Source: Microbispora hainanensis
GTDB taxonomy: Bacteria > Actinomycetota > Actinomycetes > Streptosporangiales > Streptosporangiaceae
Direction: 5' to 3'
DNA: 64,000 nucleotides
NCBI RefSeq assembly: GCF_036186745.1
Contig: NZ_CP108086.1
Span: 3,968,001 to 4,032,000 of the forward strand
A model generated the notes under the pieces. The model ran no database searches. It had not been told where the DNA came from and saw only the letters and a list, made by a program, of their open reading frames with translations. Shown in pieces: positions 5,824 to 59,514 of this stretch (position 1 is the first letter of the stretch; each line of letters starts with the position of its first letter). The position numbers and the translations under genes were made by a program.

Positions 5824-5869
5824 GACCTTGACCAGCGGATCAAGCCGCTGACCAGGGCGAAGAACACAG

Positions 5870-5909
5870 GAACGGGCGGGCCTCCAGTCTCACGGAGTCC
5901 CGCCCGTTC
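5870..5909. terminator. Hairpin between tRNA-Arg and integrase remnant
   Basis: GAACGGGCGGG (5870-5880) and CCCGCCCGTTC (5899-5909) form a perfect 11-bp stem, with a smaller CCTCC/GGAG pairing inside the loop. It follows both the tRNA and the 3' end of the leftward integrase relic. A smaller CAGCGG/CCGCTG hairpin sits at 5833-5850. Confidence 0.6.
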
Positions 5910-5919
5910 TCGTTGGCGC

Positions 5920-6072
5920 TCACTGGTTGTGGATCAGTTGTGGACCGGATTCAAGGGTCAGCGCGGCCTCGATGCGGAGGTTGTTCTGCTCCTGGCGGCC
6001 GTCGAGGCACTTGGCGTAGCGCTTCAGGAGCACCTACACGCTGTTCCCCACGTGAGCGGCCCGCCTCGGACG
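5920..6072 (-). pseudogene. Decayed tyrosine-integrase C-terminus
   Basis: Read leftward, the frame ending at TGA 5920-5922 encodes RAAHVGNSV, then an in-frame TAG (6034-6036), then VLLKRYAKCLDGRQEQNN and about 20 further residues. The series G-[NH]-S-V-x-V-L-L-x-x-Y-A-K-C matches the C-terminal catalytic-tyrosine region of actinomycete phage and ICE site-specific recombinases, with the Tyr in RYAKC. The internal stop and the absence of the R-H-x-x-R core upstream show that it is a non-functional remnant. Its position about 100 bases from a tRNA-Arg 3' end is the normal place for an integrase gene. Family assignment is from motif recognition. Confidence 0.7.
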
Positions 6073-6172
6073 CATCCACTCCGGCGTTGAGCCAGGCCGT
6101 CCCCGCCGTACCTGGCCTGAAGGTTTGCGGACGCGATCATCGCGATGGCCGCCGGAGGTTACGCTTGGCGCT

Positions 6173-6484
6173 GTGGCGGAGTTGAGTGGGGCGCAGTTGG
6201 ATGCGCTGGTCGAGCAGGCCACCGTGGATGCCTATGACGACGATGAGCAGCTCTCCGCGCTCCACGTCATGATCGAGGACAATCTCGTGACGCCGTTCCG
6301 GACGACCGTCCTGGGTGTGGAGGTCACCGTCAAGAAGGTCAGGTTGCGCGAGGGGAGCGGGATCGTCGCGATCTGCGTACGGGGGCGGCACCAGCAGACG
6401 ATCGGCATCCTCGATCTTCCGCTGCCGGATCCGCCGCCCCAGGGTTCTGAGTGGATAGAGGCCTACCGGCACAGGTGCCGCTGA
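6173..6484 (+). CDS. Small acidic protein of the actinobacterial calcium-binding-protein family
   Basis: A 103-residue protein resembling a family commonly annotated as calcium-binding protein in actinobacteria. Recognisable segments are the acidic AYDDDEQ stretch, LVTPFRTTVLGVEVTVKKV and the ending LDLPLPDPPPQGSEWIEAYRHR. The annotation is traditional and no EF-hand loop is evident, so calcium binding should be treated as unproven. The chosen GTG start (6173) sits 7 bases after a TACGCT -10-like box, suggesting a leaderless transcript; the frame is also open upstream to 6125. It is followed after 2 bases by the gene at 6487, with which it seems to form a conserved two-gene cassette. Confidence 0.7.
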   Translation: MAELSGAQLDALVEQATVDAYDDDEQLSALHVMIEDNLVTPFRTTVLGVEVTVKKVRLREGSGIVAICVRGRHQQTIGILDLPLPDPPPQGSEWIEAYRHRCR

Positions 6485-6486
6485 CG

Positions 6487-7668
6487 ATGAGTGAATACCA
6501 GTACTACGAGTTCCTCGCGGTCGACCGCCCGCTGGACGCCCGGCAGCAGGCCGAGGTCCGTGCCCTGTCCACGCGGGCCCGCATCACCGCCACCGGCTTC
6601 ACCAATGAGTACCACTGGGGCGCCTTCCGCGGTGATCCGCGTCGGATGATGGAGCGCTACTACGACGCCCACCTGTACGTGGCCAACTGGGGCACGCATC
6701 GGATGATGCTCCGGTTGCCGCGGGCCGTCCTGGGGTTGGACGCGGTCGAACGGTACTGCGTCGATGGCGGTGTAGAGGCGTGGGTCTTCGGCAAGCACCT
6801 CATCCTCGACTTCACCAGTGAGGACGAGGGAGGTGACTGGATCGACGGGGCCGAGGACTCGCTGCCGGCGATCATCGGGGTCCGGGCCGAGCTCGCCGCC
6901 GGTGACCTGCGCCCCCTCTACCTGGCCTGGCTGTCGGCGTTCGGTGCGTGGGAACGCGATGAGGATGCCTTCGACTACGGGTTCGAAGACGAGCTCGAAC
7001 CGCCGGTGCCGGCAGGTCTGGGCTCGCTCAGCGCACCGCAGCGGGCGCTGGCCGACTTCCTGCGTCTCGATGCCGACCTGCTCGCGGTCGCGGCCGAGGC
7101 GAGCCCATCTCTTGCGACCGATCGTGATGACCCGCGAGAGCTGGCCACCTGGATCGAGAACCTGCCGGTCAAGGAGAAGGACCGCTTGCTGGTGCGGGTC
7201 GTGCGGGACGAGACCGCACAGGTACGGATGGAGCTGCTGCGCCGGTTTCGCGGCGCACCGAAGGCCGGGGCGGAGAGCGGAGACGGTGGCCGCACCGTGG
7301 CCGAACTGCTGGATGGCGCGGCCGAACGGCGCGCGGAGCGAGAGCGGCAGGCCAAGGCACGGCGGGCCGAGGAGGAGGCCCGCCGTGAGCGGGAGCGGGC
7401 CGCGGCCCGGGAGGAGCGGCTGGCGGCGCTGGCCCGTGACGAGGACACGGCCTGGGAACGCGTCGACAAGTTGATCTTCACTCGGAAGCCGGGCGAATAC
7501 GACGCGGCCGTCGACCTTCTGGTGGATCTGCGGACTCTGGCTGAGCGTGTCGCTCGGCTGGAGGAGTTCACGCGGCGGCTCACGTCGCTGCGCCGGGAAC
7601 ACTCGCGTAAGCCCAGCCTCATGGAGCGTCTCGATCGAGCGGGGCTCGTCGACCGGGTCAGGTCCTGA
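6487..7668 (+). CDS. Hypothetical protein with charged coiled coil, partner of the small calcium-binding-type protein
   Basis: A 393-residue cytoplasmic protein with no signal or membrane segment. The N-terminal half begins MSEYQYYEFLAVDRPL and contains ITATGFTNEYHWGAFRGDP, a pattern I recognise from a widespread uncharacterised bacterial family. Residues about 265-325 are extremely rich in Arg, Glu and Ala and should form a long coiled coil. The C-terminal 70 residues are helical and basic. ATG 6487 lies 2 bases after the stop of the preceding gene, so the two are almost certainly co-translated. A terminator hairpin follows. No catalytic motif was found, and I do not assign a function. Confidence 0.7.
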   Translation: MSEYQYYEFLAVDRPLDARQQAEVRALSTRARITATGFTNEYHWGAFRGDPRRMMERYYDAHLYVANWGTHRMMLRLPRAVLGLDAVERYCVDGGVEAWVFGKHLILDFTSEDEGGDWIDGAEDSLPAIIGVRAELAAGDLRPLYLAWLSAFGAWERDEDAFDYGFEDELEPPVPAGLGSLSAPQRALADFLRLDADLLAVAAEASPSLATDRDDPRELATWIENLPVKEKDRLLVRVVRDETAQVRMELLRRFRGAPKAGAESGDGGRTVAELLDGAAERRAERERQAKARRAEEEARRERERAAAREERLAALARDEDTAWERVDKLIFTRKPGEYDAAVDLLVDLRTLAERVARLEEFTRRLTSLRREHSRKPSLMERLDRAGLVDRVRS

Positions 7669-11152: not shown

Positions 11153-14182
<3,030 letters not shown>

Positions 14183-14284: not shown

Positions 14285-14295
14285 TGAAACTTTCA
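14285..14295. promoter_or_regulatory. TGAAACTTTCA operator-like palindrome
   Basis: An 11-bp dyad, TGAAACTTTCA, about 75 bp upstream of the -35 of the beta-helix gene. The same motif recurs at 56421-56450 and 56616-56626. GAAANTTTC-type sites are known upstream of xylanase genes in streptomycetes and are also consistent with RpiR-type regulators. Confidence 0.5.
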
Positions 14296-52822: not shown

Positions 52823-54976
52823 TCATGGGCTGGTGCAGGTGGCCGTCGGTGCGACGGCCGAACCGTTGCCGAGGAAACCGAAGGTCGTGGTCGTGTTGGC
52901 CGCGAGCGAGCCGTTCCACGACTCGTTGCGCACCGTCACGGCCGAGCCGGAGCCGGAGTTCAGGCCTCCCCACAGCTGGGTGATGGTCTGTCCGCCGGGC
53001 CAGGTCCACTTCACGGTCCAGCCGTTGATCGCCGCGTTGCCCGCGCTCACCGTGACCTCACCCTGGAAGCCGCCGGGCCAGGAGCTCACCACCCGGACCG
53101 TCGCCGAGCAGGCGCCGGACGCCCCGCCGGACGGCGAGGGGCTGGGCGACGGGCTCGGCGAGACGCTGGGCGACGGGCTGGGAGAGGCGCTCGGTGAGAC
53201 GCTGGGCGACGGGCTGGGAGAGGCGCTCGGCGAGACGCTGGGGGAGGGGCTCGGGCTCGGCGAGGCGACCGGACCGCCCCATGCCGCCGTCGAGTCCAGC
53301 CAGGCCGCGCGGCGCAGCGTCCAGTCGCGCAGGTACTGCACCTGCCCCTGCCAGGTGGACGCGGTCGGGGTGATGAAGAAGCCGATCGTGCGCGTCGTGA
53401 GGTTCGGCCAGCGCTGGAAGTTGCGCTGCGCGGCGTTGGTCAGCGGCTGGGCGAGAGCGTCGATCCTGCTCTGCAGCGCGGCGTCGGACAGCACGCCGCG
53501 GCGCAGCTCCTGCCAGCGCGCCTTGACCTGGTCGACGAAGGCCGGATCCCGCAGGAGCTGGGTGAACCAGTCGAAGGCGATCGGCTGCCGGGGCTGCTGA
53601 TACTGCCAGCCCGAGGTCTGGTCGTTCTGGAAGAACCCGCCCACGCCGAACGTGAGGTCGTAGTCCCACAGCGGCCCGGCGAAGATCTTGGTGTTCCGGT
53701 CCTTGTAGAAGTAGGCGCTGCGGTAGTACGCGTCCATGTTCCGGCTCAGCTCATAGATGATCATCTGGTCGATGAAGGAGCCCACGTCGATGTACGCCCG
53801 ATAGCCGGTGTCCGGGTCGGCGAAGTTCTGCGAGTGCAGCACGTTGTGGAATTCCTGGATGTAGCCCCGCAGCCAGTCCTTCTGCTGCGGCTGCAGCGGC
53901 GAGGGGTCGACGACTTCGAGGTAGCTCCAGCAGGTGGACGACGACCCGCTGCACGGCAGCGTCGGCTCCTCCGCGGCCATCCACTCGAACTTCCAGATGT
54001 ACCCGCCCGTGATCTTGGGAAGGGTCGTGTCGTCCTCGTCGAGCTGCTTGAGGTCGAGGCGGTTCTTCGAGTCCTTGATCGTCTCCTCGAGCATGTAGAC
54101 GCCCATGTAGTCGTCGGCGCCCACCGGATTGGAGTCGGTGTTGAGGTAGAGCTCCACGAACCGATACCGGGGGACCTGCAGCCCCATCTCCTTGCCGAGG
54201 TCGTAGACCAGGGCCTCGCGGATCAGCGACTTGTCGGGGAACGGCCCGCGCAGCACCCAGTCGGAGTCGGCGGGCATCCCCAGCACCGGATAGTCGGCGT
54301 CGTCGTTGTCGTTGTCCCAGAACTCCAGGCGATAGGGCGCCTTCTCGAACGAGGCCGACGACTGCCCTCGCAGGTGGAAGCCGGCGCGGGTGGCGACCGC
54401 CGGAGCCGCGTTCAGCGACGTCGTCGCGCCGCTGCCCGGGGCGAAGATCATGGTCGCGGCGTCGAGGTAGTCCCGGCCGGGCTTGCCCTTGCCGTACGAG
54501 TCGATCAGGACCAGCGGCAGGTCGTGGGCCGTGGTGACGGAGGTGGCGACGTACATGGCCGTTCCGGGCTTCCCGGACGCCGTGCCGCCGACGAACGCCT
54601 GTGCGCGCAGCTGGGTGGTGCGGGTGAACTGCAGCGGCTGGCCACCGTAGAGCGCCGACTGCGCGGTGGGCGGCTTTCCGTCGGTGGTGTAGCGGATCTG
54701 CGCGCCGCTGATCGCGGTGCTCAGCGACACCGAGATCTGTCCCTGGAAGGTGCGGCTCGGCACGGAGAATGCGATGTCGCCGGTCAGGTCGTCCGCCGCT
54801 GCGGCCGCTGCGGCCGCGGCGGCTGAGGTCGCAGCCGTGCTGGTGGCCGATCCGGCCGACGACGGGTACGCGTTGAGGGGGCCGGCGAGGAGCCCGGTGA
54901 GGAGCACGGCGGCGACCGCGGTCCTTGTGACGCGGCGAGCCGCCGTGACGCCGGTATTGCGGAGCGTCAGACGCAC
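52823..54976 (-). CDS. Secreted CotH-like kinase protein with CBM2
   Basis: A 717-residue secreted protein. A signal peptide covers about residues 1-36. A chitobiase/FN3-like domain (about 65-130, IRYTTDGKPPTAQSALYGG) follows, then the CotH domain (about 140-540) with RGQSSASFEKAPYRLEF, DKSLIREALVYDLG and GPLWDYDLTFG, the Asp-rich ATP/metal-binding end of this atypical kinase fold. A Ser-Pro-Ser repeat linker leads to a CBM2 cellulose/chitin-binding domain (last about 100 residues). CotH kinases phosphorylate secreted proteins in spores. GTG 54976 follows AGGAGG and overlaps the polymerase-like gene by 10 bases. A much longer open frame upstream is antisense noise. Confidence 0.88.
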   Translation of the reverse strand: MRLTLRNTGVTAARRVTRTAVAAVLLTGLLAGPLNAYPSSAGSATSTAATSAAAAAAAAAADDLTGDIAFSVPSRTFQGQISVSLSTAISGAQIRYTTDGKPPTAQSALYGGQPLQFTRTTQLRAQAFVGGTASGKPGTAMYVATSVTTAHDLPLVLIDSYGKGKPGRDYLDAATMIFAPGSGATTSLNAAPAVATRAGFHLRGQSSASFEKAPYRLEFWDNDNDDADYPVLGMPADSDWVLRGPFPDKSLIREALVYDLGKEMGLQVPRYRFVELYLNTDSNPVGADDYMGVYMLEETIKDSKNRLDLKQLDEDDTTLPKITGGYIWKFEWMAAEEPTLPCSGSSSTCWSYLEVVDPSPLQPQQKDWLRGYIQEFHNVLHSQNFADPDTGYRAYIDVGSFIDQMIIYELSRNMDAYYRSAYFYKDRNTKIFAGPLWDYDLTFGVGGFFQNDQTSGWQYQQPRQPIAFDWFTQLLRDPAFVDQVKARWQELRRGVLSDAALQSRIDALAQPLTNAAQRNFQRWPNLTTRTIGFFITPTASTWQGQVQYLRDWTLRRAAWLDSTAAWGGPVASPSPSPSPSVSPSASPSPSPSVSPSASPSPSPSVSPSPSPSPSPSGGASGACSATVRVVSSWPGGFQGEVTVSAGNAAINGWTVKWTWPGGQTITQLWGGLNSGSGSAVTVRNESWNGSLAANTTTTFGFLGNGSAVAPTATCTSP
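53138..53268 (-). repeat. 36-bp tandem repeats encoding the Ser-Pro linker
   Basis: A 36-bp unit beginning AGACGCTGGGCGACGGGCTG occurs twice in full (53161-53196 and 53197-53232, one mismatch) with partial copies on both sides. It encodes the Ser-Pro-Ser-Val linker between CotH and CBM2 domains and is expected to vary in length. Confidence 0.8.
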
Positions 54977-55797
54977 GATGCCTCCTGTTCGGGGCGGTGG
55001 GAGATGTCCGGCGCCGGGTCCGTCGGCGACACGGTGCCGTGGAAGTGGCGGCGCAGCGTCCGCCGCCATGGGGCGTCGGGCAGGTCGGGGCGGAGCGCGG
55101 CCAGACCGGTGGCGTACTTGGAGATGCGGGCGGGTCGCAACCCGGCCCGCCACAGCAGGCGGTCGACCGGCGTGGCGGCCGAGGCGCTCTTGGTCTCGAC
55201 CACGGCGAGGCCGGGCAGCCGCAGCGCGTGGCCGTCGTGCCGCCAGGCGAGCCGGGTGTCGAGGGTGACGCGGCTCGCCGTGTCCGGCAGCAACAGGGTG
55301 GCGCGCTGATATTCGGTCACCAGGACCGGGTCGAGGGAGCTCTGGGCGGCGGCGCTCATCGACTCGCGGGCGAGCGCCTCGTTCACGAAGTCGCGTCCGG
55401 GGTCCACCGTGTCGCGGTCCCGGGGGTCGTAGGGCAACCGGTGCTTGGTGACGCTGCCCCGCGCGCCGTTGATCTTTACTTCCAGCCAGCATTGGGCGGA
55501 GTCGAGATAGGTGCGGGTGCGCACCTTGAAACGCCGTCGCCTGCGATAGGCCGTGCTGTGGTAGCTGGTCAGCTGCGGGGTGTCGAAATACACCGACTGA
55601 TAGCGGAAGGTGCGCTCGCCGTCGATGTCCAGCGCCCGGGCGTACGGCACGAGCCGTTCCAGCAGGTGGGGCAGCGCCTCTGCCGGGACCAGATATTTGC
55701 GGTCCACCCTGGTCTGCAACGCGGCCCGGTCGACCAGCTCGTCGAGCCCGACGGGCGTCAGTCGTGCCAGGGACGGTCCGATGGACGTCGTGGTCAT
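54967..55797 (-). CDS. VTC-domain polyphosphate polymerase-like protein
   Basis: A 276-residue protein of the VTC/CYTH-like tunnel fold. The pattern LQTRVDRKYLVPAEALPHLL, TFRYQSVYFDTPQLTSYH, RRRRRFKVRTRTYLDS, CWLEVKINGARGSVTKHR and VVETKSAS supplies the basic residues and acidic metal ligands that line the tunnel in yeast VTC4. Bacterial relatives are annotated as polyphosphate polymerase domain proteins, with activity mostly untested. ATG 55797 overlaps the DUF4956 stop (ATGA) and its own stop overlaps the CotH start, so the trio is one translational unit. Confidence 0.85.
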   Translation of the reverse strand: MTTTSIGPSLARLTPVGLDELVDRAALQTRVDRKYLVPAEALPHLLERLVPYARALDIDGERTFRYQSVYFDTPQLTSYHSTAYRRRRRFKVRTRTYLDSAQCWLEVKINGARGSVTKHRLPYDPRDRDTVDPGRDFVNEALARESMSAAAQSSLDPVLVTEYQRATLLLPDTASRVTLDTRLAWRHDGHALRLPGLAVVETKSASAATPVDRLLWRAGLRPARISKYATGLAALRPDLPDAPWRRTLRRHFHGTVSPTDPAPDISHRPEQEASCV

Positions 55798-56399
55798 CGG
55801 TGCGCTCCGGCGGGCGCGGGCGCCTCGGGTTCTGTGGCCGGCGCCCGGTCGGCCAGCGCGTACCGGACGTCGACCACGGTGGTCTCGTTGACCAGGTCGA
55901 GCCGCTGGACGGTGACGGCGTGCACCCGGGCATTGAGGAGCCGCTCCAGGTGCGCGACGAGCGCGACATGATCGGTGAAGGCCGATTCGAGCACCAGGAT
56001 CTGATGCCGGTAGTTCCGGAACAGCCGCCGATGGTCGCCGAGGAACATCACCGCGACGATGAGCGCCATCATGCCGCCGCCGAGCCACACCGAGGAGGTG
56101 CTCACCGCGCCGAGGATGCCCAGGGCGAGGGCCGAGAAATAGTAGGCGACCTCGTGCTGGTCGAGCTCGGTCGAGCGCAGCCGGATGATGGACAGCACGC
56201 CGAACAGCGCCATTCCCAGCCCGAGCCCGGCGCCGACGTCGCTGGAGCTGAGCGCGCTCGCGACGGCGAGGACACCGATGTTGACCCCAAGGTAGGAGAC
56301 GACCAGATCCCGCCGGCGGTGCCGTGGGAAATAGAGCCCGAAGACGAGCAACACCACCGCGCAGATGTCGATCGCGAACAGGACGAGCTGCGCCACCAT
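55794..56399 (-). CDS. DUF4956 membrane protein
   Basis: A 201-residue membrane protein with four or five hydrophobic helices in the first 125 residues (VLFAIDICAVVLLVFGLYF, YYFSALALGILGAV and others). The LSIIRLRSTELDQHEVAYYF segment is the DUF4956 hallmark. A cytosolic C-terminal domain of about 75 residues follows. ATG 56399 has GGAGGA at the right distance. DUF4956 genes regularly accompany VTC-domain and CotH genes, so the protein probably anchors or feeds the polymer-forming partner. Two GAAASTTTC sites lie 20-50 bases upstream of the start. Confidence 0.88.
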   Translation of the reverse strand: MVAQLVLFAIDICAVVLLVFGLYFPRHRRRDLVVSYLGVNIGVLAVASALSSSDVGAGLGLGMALFGVLSIIRLRSTELDQHEVAYYFSALALGILGAVSTSSVWLGGGMMALIVAVMFLGDHRRLFRNYRHQILVLESAFTDHVALVAHLERLLNARVHAVTVQRLDLVNETTVVDVRYALADRAPATEPEAPAPAGAHR

Positions 56400-56420: not shown

Positions 56421-56451
56421 TGAAACTTTCGGACAAAGAGAGAAAGTTTCG
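56421..56451. promoter_or_regulatory. Paired GAAACTTTC/GAAAGTTTC operators upstream of the DUF4956 operon
   Basis: GAAACTTTC (56422-56430) and GAAAGTTTC (56442-56450), each followed by GG, have centres exactly 20 bp apart, so they lie on the same helix face. They sit directly upstream of the DUF4956 ribosome binding site and probably control the DUF4956-VTC-CotH operon. Confidence 0.6.
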
Positions 56452-56615
56452 GGATCCCGAGCGGAACAATAGGTGAATCCCGGGTGACCAGTCAATGAAC
56501 ATCTGATACGCCATCTTGTCAGAATCGCCGGAAGCTCCCGGGTTGACCTTGACAAAGGCATGTACGCCGTCGTTTGTCGCGAGTGAAGGGCGCTTCGAAG
56601 CGGGACATATGCCGC

Positions 56616-56626
56616 TGAAACTTTCA
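56616..56626. promoter_or_regulatory. TGAAACTTTCA operator-like dyad
   Basis: A perfect copy of the TGAAACTTTCA dyad, midway in the divergent spacer between the DUF4956 operon and the M14 carboxypeptidase gene. Confidence 0.55.
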
Positions 56627-56813
56627 CCCTGACGGGTCGGAAAATCGAGATCCTCAGACCGGCCGGCACCGATCATCGCCCCCGCCCGGCCGTCTGTGCC
56701 GCCGTGTCCGCGGCCCCGCCCGCGCGCGGAACGCGCACACAGCGCGTCACATATCGGTGCGGAAAATCACCGGCGCCCTTTCGGTGTGTGCGGAGAAGGC
56801 TTTCGAGCAGTGG

Positions 56814-56856
56814 TTGACATGATCCCATTCACCCCGCAGACTTACTGAAACTTTGC
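56814..56856 (+). promoter_or_regulatory. Promoter and overlapping degenerate operator of the M14 gene
   Basis: TTGACA (56814-56819) is followed by a 17-base spacer and CAGACT (56837-56842). CTGAAACTTTG, a one-base variant of the GAAACTTTC motif (56847-56855), lies where transcription should start, a position suited to repression. The -10 is weak but the -35 is consensus. Confidence 0.5.
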
Positions 56857-56958: not shown

Positions 56959-58437
56959 ATGTCTTCAGGAGGCACGTCCCCCTCCACTGCCTCTGTCCCC
57001 GGAAAGCGTTCCGCCCTCGGGAAACGCGTTCTCACGCTGGCGCTTGGCGTCGGTTTTCTGGGCGGTCTCGGAATTCCGGCCGCCGGTGCCGATGTCGCCG
57101 CCACCGCGGATTCCCAGGCGGTCGTCCAGCAGCAGGCGCCGAGCCTGCCGAGCGGACGGACGACCTACCGGACGATCGACGACTACAACAACGAGATGCT
57201 GGCGCTGAGCGCCCGGCACCCCGGCCTCGTCAAGCACATCACGCTGCCGCACAAGACCCGCCAGGGCCGGGAGGTGTACGGCATCGAGGTCACCCACGAC
57301 GTCGAGGCCGCCGACGGCAAGCCGGTCCTGCTGATGATGGGCGTCCACCACGGCAACGAATGGCCGTCCGGCGAGCACACGCTGGAGTTCGCCTACGACC
57401 TCATCGGCAACGACGGCAAGGACCCCCGGATCACCCGCCTGCTCGACACGGCGCGGGTCATCTTCGTCCCGGTCGTCAACGTCGACGGGTTCGTCATCAA
57501 CCGGCGTACGAGCTGCGGGGTGTCCCCGACGTGCGCGAGCAACGCCGGGGTCGACATCAACCGCAACTACCCGTTCGGCTGGGGCAGCAACGCCGGGTCC
57601 AACAACACCAACCGCGGCCCCGGGCCCGGCTCCGAGCCCGAAGTGCAGAACATCATGGACCTGACCACGAGCAACCAGGTCACGGTCCTGATCACGAATC
57701 ACACCTCCGGTCACACCGTCCTCCGTCCGCCGCTGGAGAAGCGCGCGGGCGACGCCCCGGACGAGGCCGTCTACGCCGCGCTCACCGACGCGATCACGGC
57801 CGAGAACGGCTACACGGGCATGAAGTCGGGCTTCGACTACGAGACGACCGGTGAGACCCCCGACTGGTCCTACTACGCGACCCGCGGCCTCGGGTTCACC
57901 TTCGAGATCATGAAGACCCAGTCGACCAACAACACCTACTCCGAGGTGATCGAGGACTACACGGGCACCGGCCGCTACGAGGGCAAGTCGAACCGCGAGG
58001 CGTTCATGGTGGCCCTGGAGTACGCGGCCGACCCGGCCGGGCACTCGGTCATCACCGGCAAGGCGCCGAAGGGTGCGGTCCTGAAGATCACCAAGGACTT
58101 CGACCTGTGGACCGCCCCGATCGTCCAGGCGAACAACGTCCTCGACGCGCCCCAGAGGGTGCCCACCCACCTGGAGTCGACGCTGGTCGCCCCCACCAAC
58201 GGCAAGTTCGCCTGGCACGTCAACCCGTCCGTACGGCCGGCTCCGGCCTACACCGAGTCGGGCGTCGTCGCCACCGGGCCGGGCAGGTTCATCAAGGAGA
58301 GCTGGACGCTCACCTGCGCCCGTCCGTCGGGCGAGATCCTCGAGACGGTGCACGTGACCGTCGACCGGGGCGAGCAGGCCGACGTACGGCTGCAGGAGTG
58401 CAAGAAGAGGTTCAACGGCAACGGCCCGAAGAACTGA
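56959..58437 (+). CDS. Secreted M14-family zinc carboxypeptidase
   Basis: A 492-residue secreted metallocarboxypeptidase. A twin-Arg-free but basic N-terminus and hydrophobic core (about 20-45, ending AAGA) form the signal peptide. The catalytic domain shows zinc ligands His131 and Glu134 in VHHGNEWPSGEH, substrate-binding GVDINRNYPFGWG, a third His in LITNHTSGHTV (His248) and the general-base Glu in GFTFEIMKTQ. The C-terminal 110 residues form a beta-sandwich-like accessory domain. M14 enzymes remove C-terminal amino acids or act on gamma-D-glutamyl peptides. The gene is preceded by GAAACTTTC sites and followed by a strong terminator. An RpiR gene is next. Confidence 0.9.
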   Translation: MSSGGTSPSTASVPGKRSALGKRVLTLALGVGFLGGLGIPAAGADVAATADSQAVVQQQAPSLPSGRTTYRTIDDYNNEMLALSARHPGLVKHITLPHKTRQGREVYGIEVTHDVEAADGKPVLLMMGVHHGNEWPSGEHTLEFAYDLIGNDGKDPRITRLLDTARVIFVPVVNVDGFVINRRTSCGVSPTCASNAGVDINRNYPFGWGSNAGSNNTNRGPGPGSEPEVQNIMDLTTSNQVTVLITNHTSGHTVLRPPLEKRAGDAPDEAVYAALTDAITAENGYTGMKSGFDYETTGETPDWSYYATRGLGFTFEIMKTQSTNNTYSEVIEDYTGTGRYEGKSNREAFMVALEYAADPAGHSVITGKAPKGAVLKITKDFDLWTAPIVQANNVLDAPQRVPTHLESTLVAPTNGKFAWHVNPSVRPAPAYTESGVVATGPGRFIKESWTLTCARPSGEILETVHVTVDRGEQADVRLQECKKRFNGNGPKN

Positions 58438-58623: not shown

Positions 58624-59514
58624 ATGAGGCACGCTCCGGAGCCCGGCCGGTCGCTCGCCGTGCTGGACGCCGCCCGGATCGTCGCGAACCTGCGCGCGCT
58701 CTTCGACGGCCACCGCCTTTCGCCGTCCCAACGCCGGATCGCCCGCTATCTGCTGGACAACGCGCAGGAGGCCGTCTTCTTCACCAGCGCGGACCTCGCC
58801 GAGCGCGCCGGCGTCAGCCAGCCGTCGGTCACCCGCTTCGCCGCCGCGCTCGGGTTCCGCGGGTTCCCGGAGTTCCGGGAGGCGCTGCGTACGTCCGTGT
58901 TCGGCGACCGGCAGCCGGCCGCGACGGACGACCGCCACAACGAGATCCAGGAGCTGGTCACCTCCGAGATCCGCGACCTCGAACGGCTGCGCGACGGCCT
59001 GGCCGACCCCGGGCAGCTCCGGCGGGTGGCGGGTCAACTGGCCGGGTCGAGCCCGCTTCTGGTCATGGGCCTGCGGATCTCCGCGCCGCTGGCGCACCTG
59101 TTCGGCTACCTCGCCGAGAAGGTGCTCCCGGACGTACGCGTGCTGGACGTGCCGGGCTCGATCATGGAAGACCGGCTGAGCAGGGCGGCGGAGTCGGGCG
59201 CCGCCTGGGTGCTCGCCATCGGCCTGCCCCGCTATCCGCGTGAGCTGGAGCAGGGACTCGTCTGGGCGCGGCGGGTGCGGCTGAAGATCGCCCTCGTCAC
59301 CGACCAGCCGGTGGGCCGGCTCACCGACCTCGCGGACGAGGTCCTGCTCGCCCCGGTGAGCTCGGGCTTCGCGTTCGACTCCCACGCCGCCGCGACGGTC
59401 CTGTGCACCGCCCTGCTGCACACCATGCTGGACACCCTCGATGCCGAGGGGCAGGCCCGGCTGGAGGCGTTCGACGACCGGGCCGCCGAGCGTCAGGTCT
59501 TCCTGACCGGCTGA
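58624..59514 (+). CDS. MurR/RpiR-family transcriptional regulator
   Basis: A 296-residue regulator. The N-terminal HTH_6 domain (about 15-95) has LSPSQRRIARYLLDN, ADLAERAGVSQPSVTRFAAA and GFRGFPEFREAL. The C-terminal SIS sugar-isomerase domain (about 130-280) has GLRISAPLAHLFGYLAEKV and WVLAIGLPRYPRELEQG. SIS domains bind phosphosugars or related ligands. It follows the M14 carboxypeptidase gene, a linkage that suggests control of cell-wall peptide or muropeptide salvage, and it is a candidate binder of the nearby GAAACTTTC sites. ATG 58624 is preceded by GGGGAGTGG. Its 3' end overlaps the convergent ArsR gene by 22 bases. Confidence 0.9.
   Translation: MRHAPEPGRSLAVLDAARIVANLRALFDGHRLSPSQRRIARYLLDNAQEAVFFTSADLAERAGVSQPSVTRFAAALGFRGFPEFREALRTSVFGDRQPAATDDRHNEIQELVTSEIRDLERLRDGLADPGQLRRVAGQLAGSSPLLVMGLRISAPLAHLFGYLAEKVLPDVRVLDVPGSIMEDRLSRAAESGAAWVLAIGLPRYPRELEQGLVWARRVRLKIALVTDQPVGRLTDLADEVLLAPVSSGFAFDSHAAATVLCTALLHTMLDTLDAEGQARLEAFDDRAAERQVFLTG

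Follow-up and report, generated by a model that had tools for sequence, protein, structure and literature searches.

A palindromic motif before a DUF4956-VTC-CotH operon of Microbispora hainanensis: candidate operators of a LacI-type plant-cell-wall regulon

The operon and its upstream palindromes

The window, i.e. the whole 64,000-nt stretch of the M. hainanensis chromosome analysed here, carries a three-gene operon on the minus strand, divergent M14 peptidase and RpiR-family genes next to it and, elsewhere, a beta-helix gene. The features that matter are the following (palindromic sites are given without strand).

11153-13801, minus strand: beta-helix protein with a GH141-type insertion and a ricin-B lectin domain, pectinase/GH141-like (domain scan)
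14285-14295, no strand: operator candidate TGAAACTTTCA, 484 bp 5' of the called start of the beta-helix/lectin gene
52823-54976, minus strand: CotH-kinase-domain protein, presumably secreted, with a Pro/Ser linker and a C-terminal cellulose-binding CBM2 (domain scan)
54967-55797, minus strand: VTC-domain protein of the polyphosphate-polymerase fold family (domain scan, family alignment)
55794-56399, minus strand: DUF4956 protein, presumed membrane protein, first gene of the operon (domain scan)
56421-56431, no strand: O1, TGAAACTTTCG, with core GAAACTTTC at 56422-56430, 22 nt 5' of the DUF4956 start
56441-56451, no strand: O2, AGAAAGTTTCG, with core GAAAGTTTC at 56442-56450
56466-56495, minus strand: predicted sigma-70-type promoter, TTGACT-N18-TATTGT
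56616-56626, no strand: O3, TGAAACTTTCA, a perfect 11-bp dyad 175 bp from O2
56846-56855, no strand: degenerate copy TGAAACTTTG near the M14 start, with one mismatch at the last half-site base
56959-58437, plus strand: M14 zinc carboxypeptidase, divergent neighbour
58624-59514, plus strand: RpiR-family regulator

The initial annotation had pointed to a GAAACTTTC-type pair spaced 20 bp from 56421 onward, to a perfect dyad between that pair and the M14 gene, to a degenerate copy beside the M14 start and to a further perfect copy at 14285-14295; all were recovered, with O1 and O2 exactly 20 bp apart from start to start. The GAAANTTTC pattern occurs four times in the window against 0.10 expected from dinucleotide shuffles, none of 100 shuffles reaching four. 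When flanking bases are considered, the sites at 14285, 56421 and 56616 belong to the YGAAANTTTCR class (hereafter YR), and that at 56441 has one such flank only. If 78 sites are scattered at random over the intergenic DNA, a cluster of three within 204 bp is seen somewhere in about 0.8% of cases.

The predicted promoter was found once against 0.1 expected in shuffled sequence, and both of its hexamer regions fall in blocks with many invariant columns in a 10-genome alignment. It would set the transcription start of the operon near 56459 and O2 at about +9 to +19; the O1/O2 pair would then span about +9 to +39 of a 60-nt leader, which is a classic repressor position.

The arrangement is conserved (numbers prefixed G and L are our identifiers of genomes and loci). 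A DUF4956 match was obtained in 21 of the 80 genomes searched, our own included, and nine besides our own are at least 81% identical, giving 10 close operons. All three sites are present in seven of these 10 (window included), always with the pair at exactly 20 bp; the remaining three keep one or two perfect sites, so that every close operon has at least one. Two of the three-site genomes, G013 and G014, have no adjoining M14 and RpiR genes, which indicates that the cluster serves the DUF4956 operon. The O2-O3 spacing is 174-176 bp in six of the seven and 210 bp in the other (G013). Fixed helical phasing between O2 and O3 was discarded, since 174-176 and about 210 bp share no phase at 10.5 bp per turn; looping is thus a guess.

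A second sample consisted of named loci, namely the best 80 of at least 549 confirmed stretches, a DUF4956 gene being called in 78 of them; it overlaps the close relatives in two genomes (G080 = G012, L156, M. hainanensis; G086 = G010, L163, M. triticiradicis). The closest of these best 80 is from M. hainanensis, with a DUF4956 protein 95% identical. All 15 top loci (two Microbispora, five Saccharothrix, one Actinosynnema and seven Micromonospora) have a perfect GAAANTTTC no more than 500 bp upstream of DUF4956, as do three of the 63 others, and a site accompanies 17 of the 30 CotH proteins with a CBM2 versus 1 of the 48 without, counts which are descriptive because the loci are related. By genus, at least one site was found in 5/5 Saccharothrix loci, in the one Actinosynnema locus and in 7/17 Micromonospora loci among these best 80, the other 10 Micromonospora loci having no perfect site before DUF4956. 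A TGGGAGCGCTCCCA-like site, with up to two mismatches allowed, precedes DUF4956 in only 1 of the 78 loci (from the best 80), and CelR/CebR-type control of this gene was therefore dropped. Within Microbispora the operon is patchy and the motif is not: no DUF4956 match at E <= 0.001 was seen in G001-G003, G005, G006 and G011, and only a weak one in G007.

The operon looks intact, as conserved residues are kept in two of its products. Thirteen basic or acidic residues of the VTC protein are invariant over 11 sequences (R30, K34, R89, K91, R93, R95, E106, K108, R120, R165, E201, K203 and K227); we take these to be the tunnel residues, by analogy with yeast VTC4. The protein has the VTC domain and the conserved basic residues expected of VTC polyphosphate polymerases, whose activity it may share. 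The CotH domain match is significant, and D438, D440, K212 and E218 are near-invariant over 40 sequences. Searches among solved structures returned no relative of the VTC protein at E up to 1, and only CBM2 and low-complexity matches for the CotH protein. NCBIfam gave no above-cut-off name to the DUF4956, VTC or CotH proteins, nor to the LacI candidate described below.

The motif had been presented initially as common to this operon, the M14 gene and the beta-helix gene. For the operon this stands, given its conserved sites. The M14 gene is a weaker regulon candidate: it occupies the same place in 5 of the 10 close operons (window included), and an imperfect site, TGAAA(C/A)TTT(G/A), precedes it in all five aligned genomes that have it (window, G012, G008, G009 and G004). 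There, the first half-site is kept and the second is never complete, the centre and last base varying (TGAAACTTTA in G012, TGAAAATTTG in G009 and G004). The beta-helix gene, judged by its domains, would fit a plant-polymer regulon by content, but its site is 484 bp away from the called start.

The motif across the genome and the genes behind it

A genome-wide scan, for which chance-level counts had been named beforehand as the outcome speaking against the motif, placed it far above chance: 81 copies of GAAANTTTC versus 4 of the reversed pattern in the 8,801,664 bp of the single contig. For GAAACTTTC the counts were 72 and 3, and YGAAANTTTCR occurs 49 times. Seventy-eight of the 81 sites were inspected in their context, with gene calls from an in-house simple codon-usage caller whose starts are approximate. 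Seventy-four sites are intergenic and four lie inside called genes, though 88% of the window is coding (binomial p ~6e-64). For 65 of the 74, a called start follows at most 400 nt downstream, and the median distance for all 74 is about 175 nt.

The 78 sites fall into three flank classes. Forty-six are YGAAANTTTCR, 25 have one flank or neither, and seven are G..C-flanked (AGGAAACTTTCCT, consensus TAGGAAACTTTCCTA) and ROK/chitin-like. Position 5 is T/A in 77% and C/G in 23%, and little is conserved further out. The seven TAGGAAACTTTCCTA-type sites of the genome are L051, L060, L070, L071, L075, L086:10561 and L091; scanned neighbours, available for six, comprise three GH18 proteins, one GH3 protein and two ROK regulators. 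A related site, AAGAAAGTTTCCT (L053), is found upstream of a gene for an AA10-CBM5 LPMO. Of the YR sites, two fall within coding sequence, L066:3503 in secY and L072:3535 in an ABC permease gene, probably by chance.

To describe the neighbours, 74 of the 88 genes listed downstream of sites, plus eight further genes, were scanned with Pfam. A gene was counted as a target when it encodes a plant-polysaccharide enzyme, a polysaccharide deacetylase or a CBM2/ricin-lectin protein and lies at most 600 bp downstream of a site. On this definition, 28 of the 46 YR sites precede a target: GH5, two GH6, GH9, GH10, GH11, GH12, GH27, GH43, GH48, GH54, GH95 and GH127 proteins, a pectate lyase, a rhamnogalacturonan lyase and a glucuronoyl esterase are among them. 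Two more are those 5' of the CotH operon. The other 16 have neither; six of these adjoin sugar-binding proteins, a LacI-transporter pair, a ROK protein or an aldose epimerase, two are the sites inside genes, and the others have as neighbour a methyltransferase, an NRPS, a PIG-V-like protein, a sugar-nucleotide transferase or no recognisable gene. The 25 sites with one flank or neither are associated with target-class genes in nine cases (GH3, GH10, GH62 and others), one is O2 and 15 have neither kind of neighbour. By BLAST, 35 of 87 downstream neighbours resemble target enzymes, a partly circular figure since the queries were drawn from the neighbours; the background, over the other genes of the same stretches, is 15 of 307. 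Tandem genes for glucose/sorbosone dehydrogenase-type proteins (L097:3653-5524 and 5850-7001) each have a one-flank GAAANTTTC site upstream.

In another genus (G041), where 22 of 38 sites were inspected and 20 of 27 listed neighbours scanned, the neighbours again include GH5, GH6, GH11 and GH30 proteins, a pectate lyase and CBM2 proteins, together with an amylase-type protein and sugar-binding proteins. A CBM2-bearing relative of the L097 dehydrogenases also has a site there (L284). The neighbours in G041 also comprise three NRPS-domain proteins, an acyl-CoA dehydrogenase, a BTAD regulator, a multicopper oxidase, an alpha/beta hydrolase and a glycosyltransferase-like protein. The YR sites upstream of NRPS-domain genes (L096:3522, genome position 7947821, in M. 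hainanensis; L274, L277 and L278 in G041) hint at a possible response of some secondary metabolism to plant polymer.

As far as sequence can tell, the regulon exists. It was first outlined as one of cell-surface and polymer functions; the regulon itself holds, and its scope is better put, from its target content, as plant cell-wall polysaccharide breakdown.

Candidate readers of the motif

The genome has 37 LacI-type helix-turn-helix matches, among which one protein follows the motif from genome to genome:

8,454,838-8,455,845 (L243:8839-9849), own chromosome: LacI-family candidate repressor

Its gene adjoins a GH5 gene and xylanase-like and arabinanase-like genes (the latter two named by NCBIfam below cut-off). 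Over 49 genomes of the family, our own included, YGAAANTTTCR varies from 0 to 55 copies, the 15 Microbispora having 36-55 against 0-2 for the reversed control. An orthologue of the candidate (78-100% identity) is found in 27 of the 49, all of which have 6-55 copies; 20 of the 22 genomes without it have 0-5, the exceptions being G016 (13) and G027 (36). These orthologue calls rest on an identity gap (78% versus 61% for the best match elsewhere in the family) rather than on a tree. Outside Microbispora, at least six copies are found in 12/12 genomes with the orthologue versus 2/22 without (Mann-Whitney p 7.5e-6), a comparison in which the cut at six was chosen after seeing the counts and the related genomes are not independent. 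High identity does not always go with many copies: G036 and G048 have orthologues at 91-93% and only 8 and 6 copies.

The motif is also present where an autoregulated repressor would have it. GAAANTTTC lies in the promoters of all 27 orthologues, our own included, and in neither of the two promoters of the nearest homologues in the exceptional genomes G016 and G027. Eleven of the 14 other Microbispora have the candidate at 99-100% identity, a higher conservation than that of the other LacI paralogues searched. Two features expected of a LacI operator system are seen, a candidate repressor that tracks the motif and an operator in its own promoter; exceptions to the tracking are G016 and G027, as well as two Streptomyces as far as the DUF4956 operon is concerned. 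The two Streptomyces (L182 and L200) have an orthologue at 83-84% and no perfect site before DUF4956. A xylanase-type LacI regulator, earlier mentioned only as the alternative reader, therefore fits well, on co-occurrence as well as on the motif at its own gene.

The most serious competitors of this protein are its own relatives. Other subfamily members (such as those at 7,825,867, 3,154,085, 3,131,608 or 6,765,365), singly or in competition, may be the main readers, which we regard as unlikely but worth keeping in view. TVSK-type recognition helices occur in several LacI paralogues. A GH3 gene adjoins one paralogue and a transporter permease gene another, both with GAAANTTTC sites nearby, and a third lies beside an apparent GH10 C-terminus, recognised by eye. 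In the motif-rich genomes that have no near orthologue of the candidate (G027, with 36 sites, and G016, with 13), its role may have passed to a paralogue. The motif-bearing Saccharothrix, Actinosynnema and Micromonospora (L157 excluded), which bring the operator into other orders, have a best LacI match only 55-60% identical, so that use of this site by paralogues has to be assumed; the operator is probably shared by a LacI subfamily. Against a paralogue as main reader stands the distribution of the three that were compared, those at 3,131,608, 3,154,085 and 6,765,365, out of a subfamily that also has members at 7,825,867, 8,484,871 and 1,980,215. The 3,131,608 orthologue is absent from G005 and G014 (next best 61-62%), both motif-rich, and the 3,154,085 orthologue from G001, G002, G010 and G011 (58-61%), with 36-47 sites across both sets. 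The 6,765,365 orthologue is present in 15/15 Microbispora and in G026 and is absent from motif-rich genera such as G045, G041 and G017. All three were set aside as main readers on these grounds. Conversely, the 8,454,838 orthologue is the only subfamily member reported at E<1e-60, among the top candidates scored, in G019, G023, G029, G034 and G048, five genera which still have 23, 16, 12, 11 and 6 copies.

That one ROK-family (CsnR/NagC-like) regulator reads all GAAACTTTC sites is very improbable. The idea draws on the six TAGGAAACTTTCCTA-type sites with scanned neighbours, which precede GH18, GH3 and ROK genes, and on one ROK gene with a TGAAAGTTTCA site 262 bp upstream; S. lividans CsnR binds TAGGAAACTTTCCTA-type DNA at a site given in PMC4856308, and the csnN106 construct of PMC3048496 matches the G..C-flanked class. 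However, the window sites are without AGG/CCT flanks (G..C flanks being seen at the seven other genomic sites), and cellulases, xylanases and pectinases are absent among the scanned neighbours of the seven; a ROK reader was thus rejected for the window. The RpiR protein beside the M14 gene, proposed in the initial annotation as the local candidate regulator, has proximity in its favour and next to no chance of being the reader: an orthologue at least 85% identical exists in only 8 of the 15 motif-rich Microbispora, the seven without it have 36-53 copies versus 38-55 in the eight with it, the operators are kept where it is not a neighbour (G013 and G014), and no GAAANTTTC separates the M14 and RpiR genes.

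The palindromes are probably the sites of a sugar-sensing repressor controlling dozens of plant-cell-wall-digesting enzymes. We think it likely, if well short of certain, that they are operators of a plant-cell-wall regulon read by LacI 8,454,838, or by it together with close paralogues, and that the same protein or proteins repress the CotH operon.

Proposed mechanism and related systems

On the LacI reading, a dimer would, without plant polymer, occupy O1/O2 just downstream of the -10 box of the operon, and the distal O3 would help it block transcription of DUF4956-VTC-CotH; repression rather than activation, like the binding itself, is presumed. On binding a short xylo- or cello-oligosaccharide set free from plant cell wall, the repressor would leave the promoter, a release modelled on the xylobiose-responsive BxlR (see below). 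The same would happen at about 30 genes for cellulases, xylanases, arabinofuranosidases, pectinases and related functions, and at the repressor gene itself, so that the cellulose-binding CotH protein and its DUF4956 and VTC companions would be made together with the secreted cellulases.

A more specific role for the operon, as an extracellular phosphorylation module of the cellulose response, is a speculative and rather improbable proposal when all its steps are taken jointly. The cytoplasmic VTC protein would make polyphosphate; DUF4956 would help to pass the polyphosphate (or a signal) through the membrane; and the secreted CotH kinase, tethered to cellulose by its CBM2, would use a phosphoryl donor on co-secreted cellulases, xylanases or adhesins. 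If true, the module would be to a system of soluble enzymes what CotH proteins are to the cellulosome.

The kind of system described is already known; two points appear to be new, the LacI protein proposed as its regulator and the inclusion of the CotH operon. That operon, widespread in named actinobacterial loci, would gain a physiological setting, with expression predicted on contact with plant cell wall. The reader of the cellulase site, for its part, becomes testable: a single, extremely conserved LacI protein tracks the motif and carries it at its own gene.

The closest precedent for the sites is the prediction by Anderson et al. (2012; PMC3377646) of such a palindrome before about half of the cellulases of two species, TGAAANTTTCA for Actinospica robiniae and GAAA(G/C)TTTC for Catenulispora acidiphila. 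That palindrome is likewise enriched upstream of genes here, and it precedes the same targets (cellulases, GH10/GH11 xylanases and GH54 arabinofuranosidases), in a different bacterial order from theirs. In its passages on the site, that paper names no regulator, CotH/VTC operon or M14 gene.

For the regulator, the nearest relative is BxlR of Streptomyces, a xylobiose-responsive LacI repressor with site CGAAACTTTCG (PMC4743123); in Streptomyces sp. SirexAA-E, CGAANNTTTCG is present at xylanase promoters and a BxlR homologue was pulled down (PMC12772271). The candidate shares with it the LacI family, the core operator, xylanase targets and a motif before its own gene. Unlike BxlR as described there, it lies beside GH5, xylanase-like and arabinanase-like genes, its target set includes cellulases and pectinases, and T/A is preferred over C/G at position 5 of its motif. 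No bxlEFGA cluster accompanies it in its own genome, the bxlEFG/bxlA neighbourhood being missing from the scanned part of 16 kb, and it is not classed as BxlR proper. In G041, a gene for a sugar-binding protein is found about 1.9 kb from the orthologue. The CelR/CebR cellobiose regulon (TGGGAGCGCTCCCA) plays the same physiological role in other actinobacteria with a different operator.

For the operon, two comparisons can be made; searches of open-licence PMC papers gave no link of DUF4956/VTC/CotH to a LacI-type plant-polymer regulon. In Clostridium thermocellum, the CotH-dockerin protein CseP belongs to the biomass-sensing sigma-I6 regulon (PMC4711584). There too CotH is tied to plant polymer, CseP being co-regulated with cellulosomal enzymes, whereas here the attachment is through CBM2, the enzymes are free, the control is predicted to be of LacI type and DUF4956 and VTC are companions. 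In some Gram-positive Pel clusters, genes of the same three families (cotH, a polyphosphate polymerase gene and DUF4956) are accessory to exopolysaccharide biosynthesis (PMC7112168); in M. hainanensis, by contrast, they form a separate operon, and a CBM2 is borne by the CotH protein.
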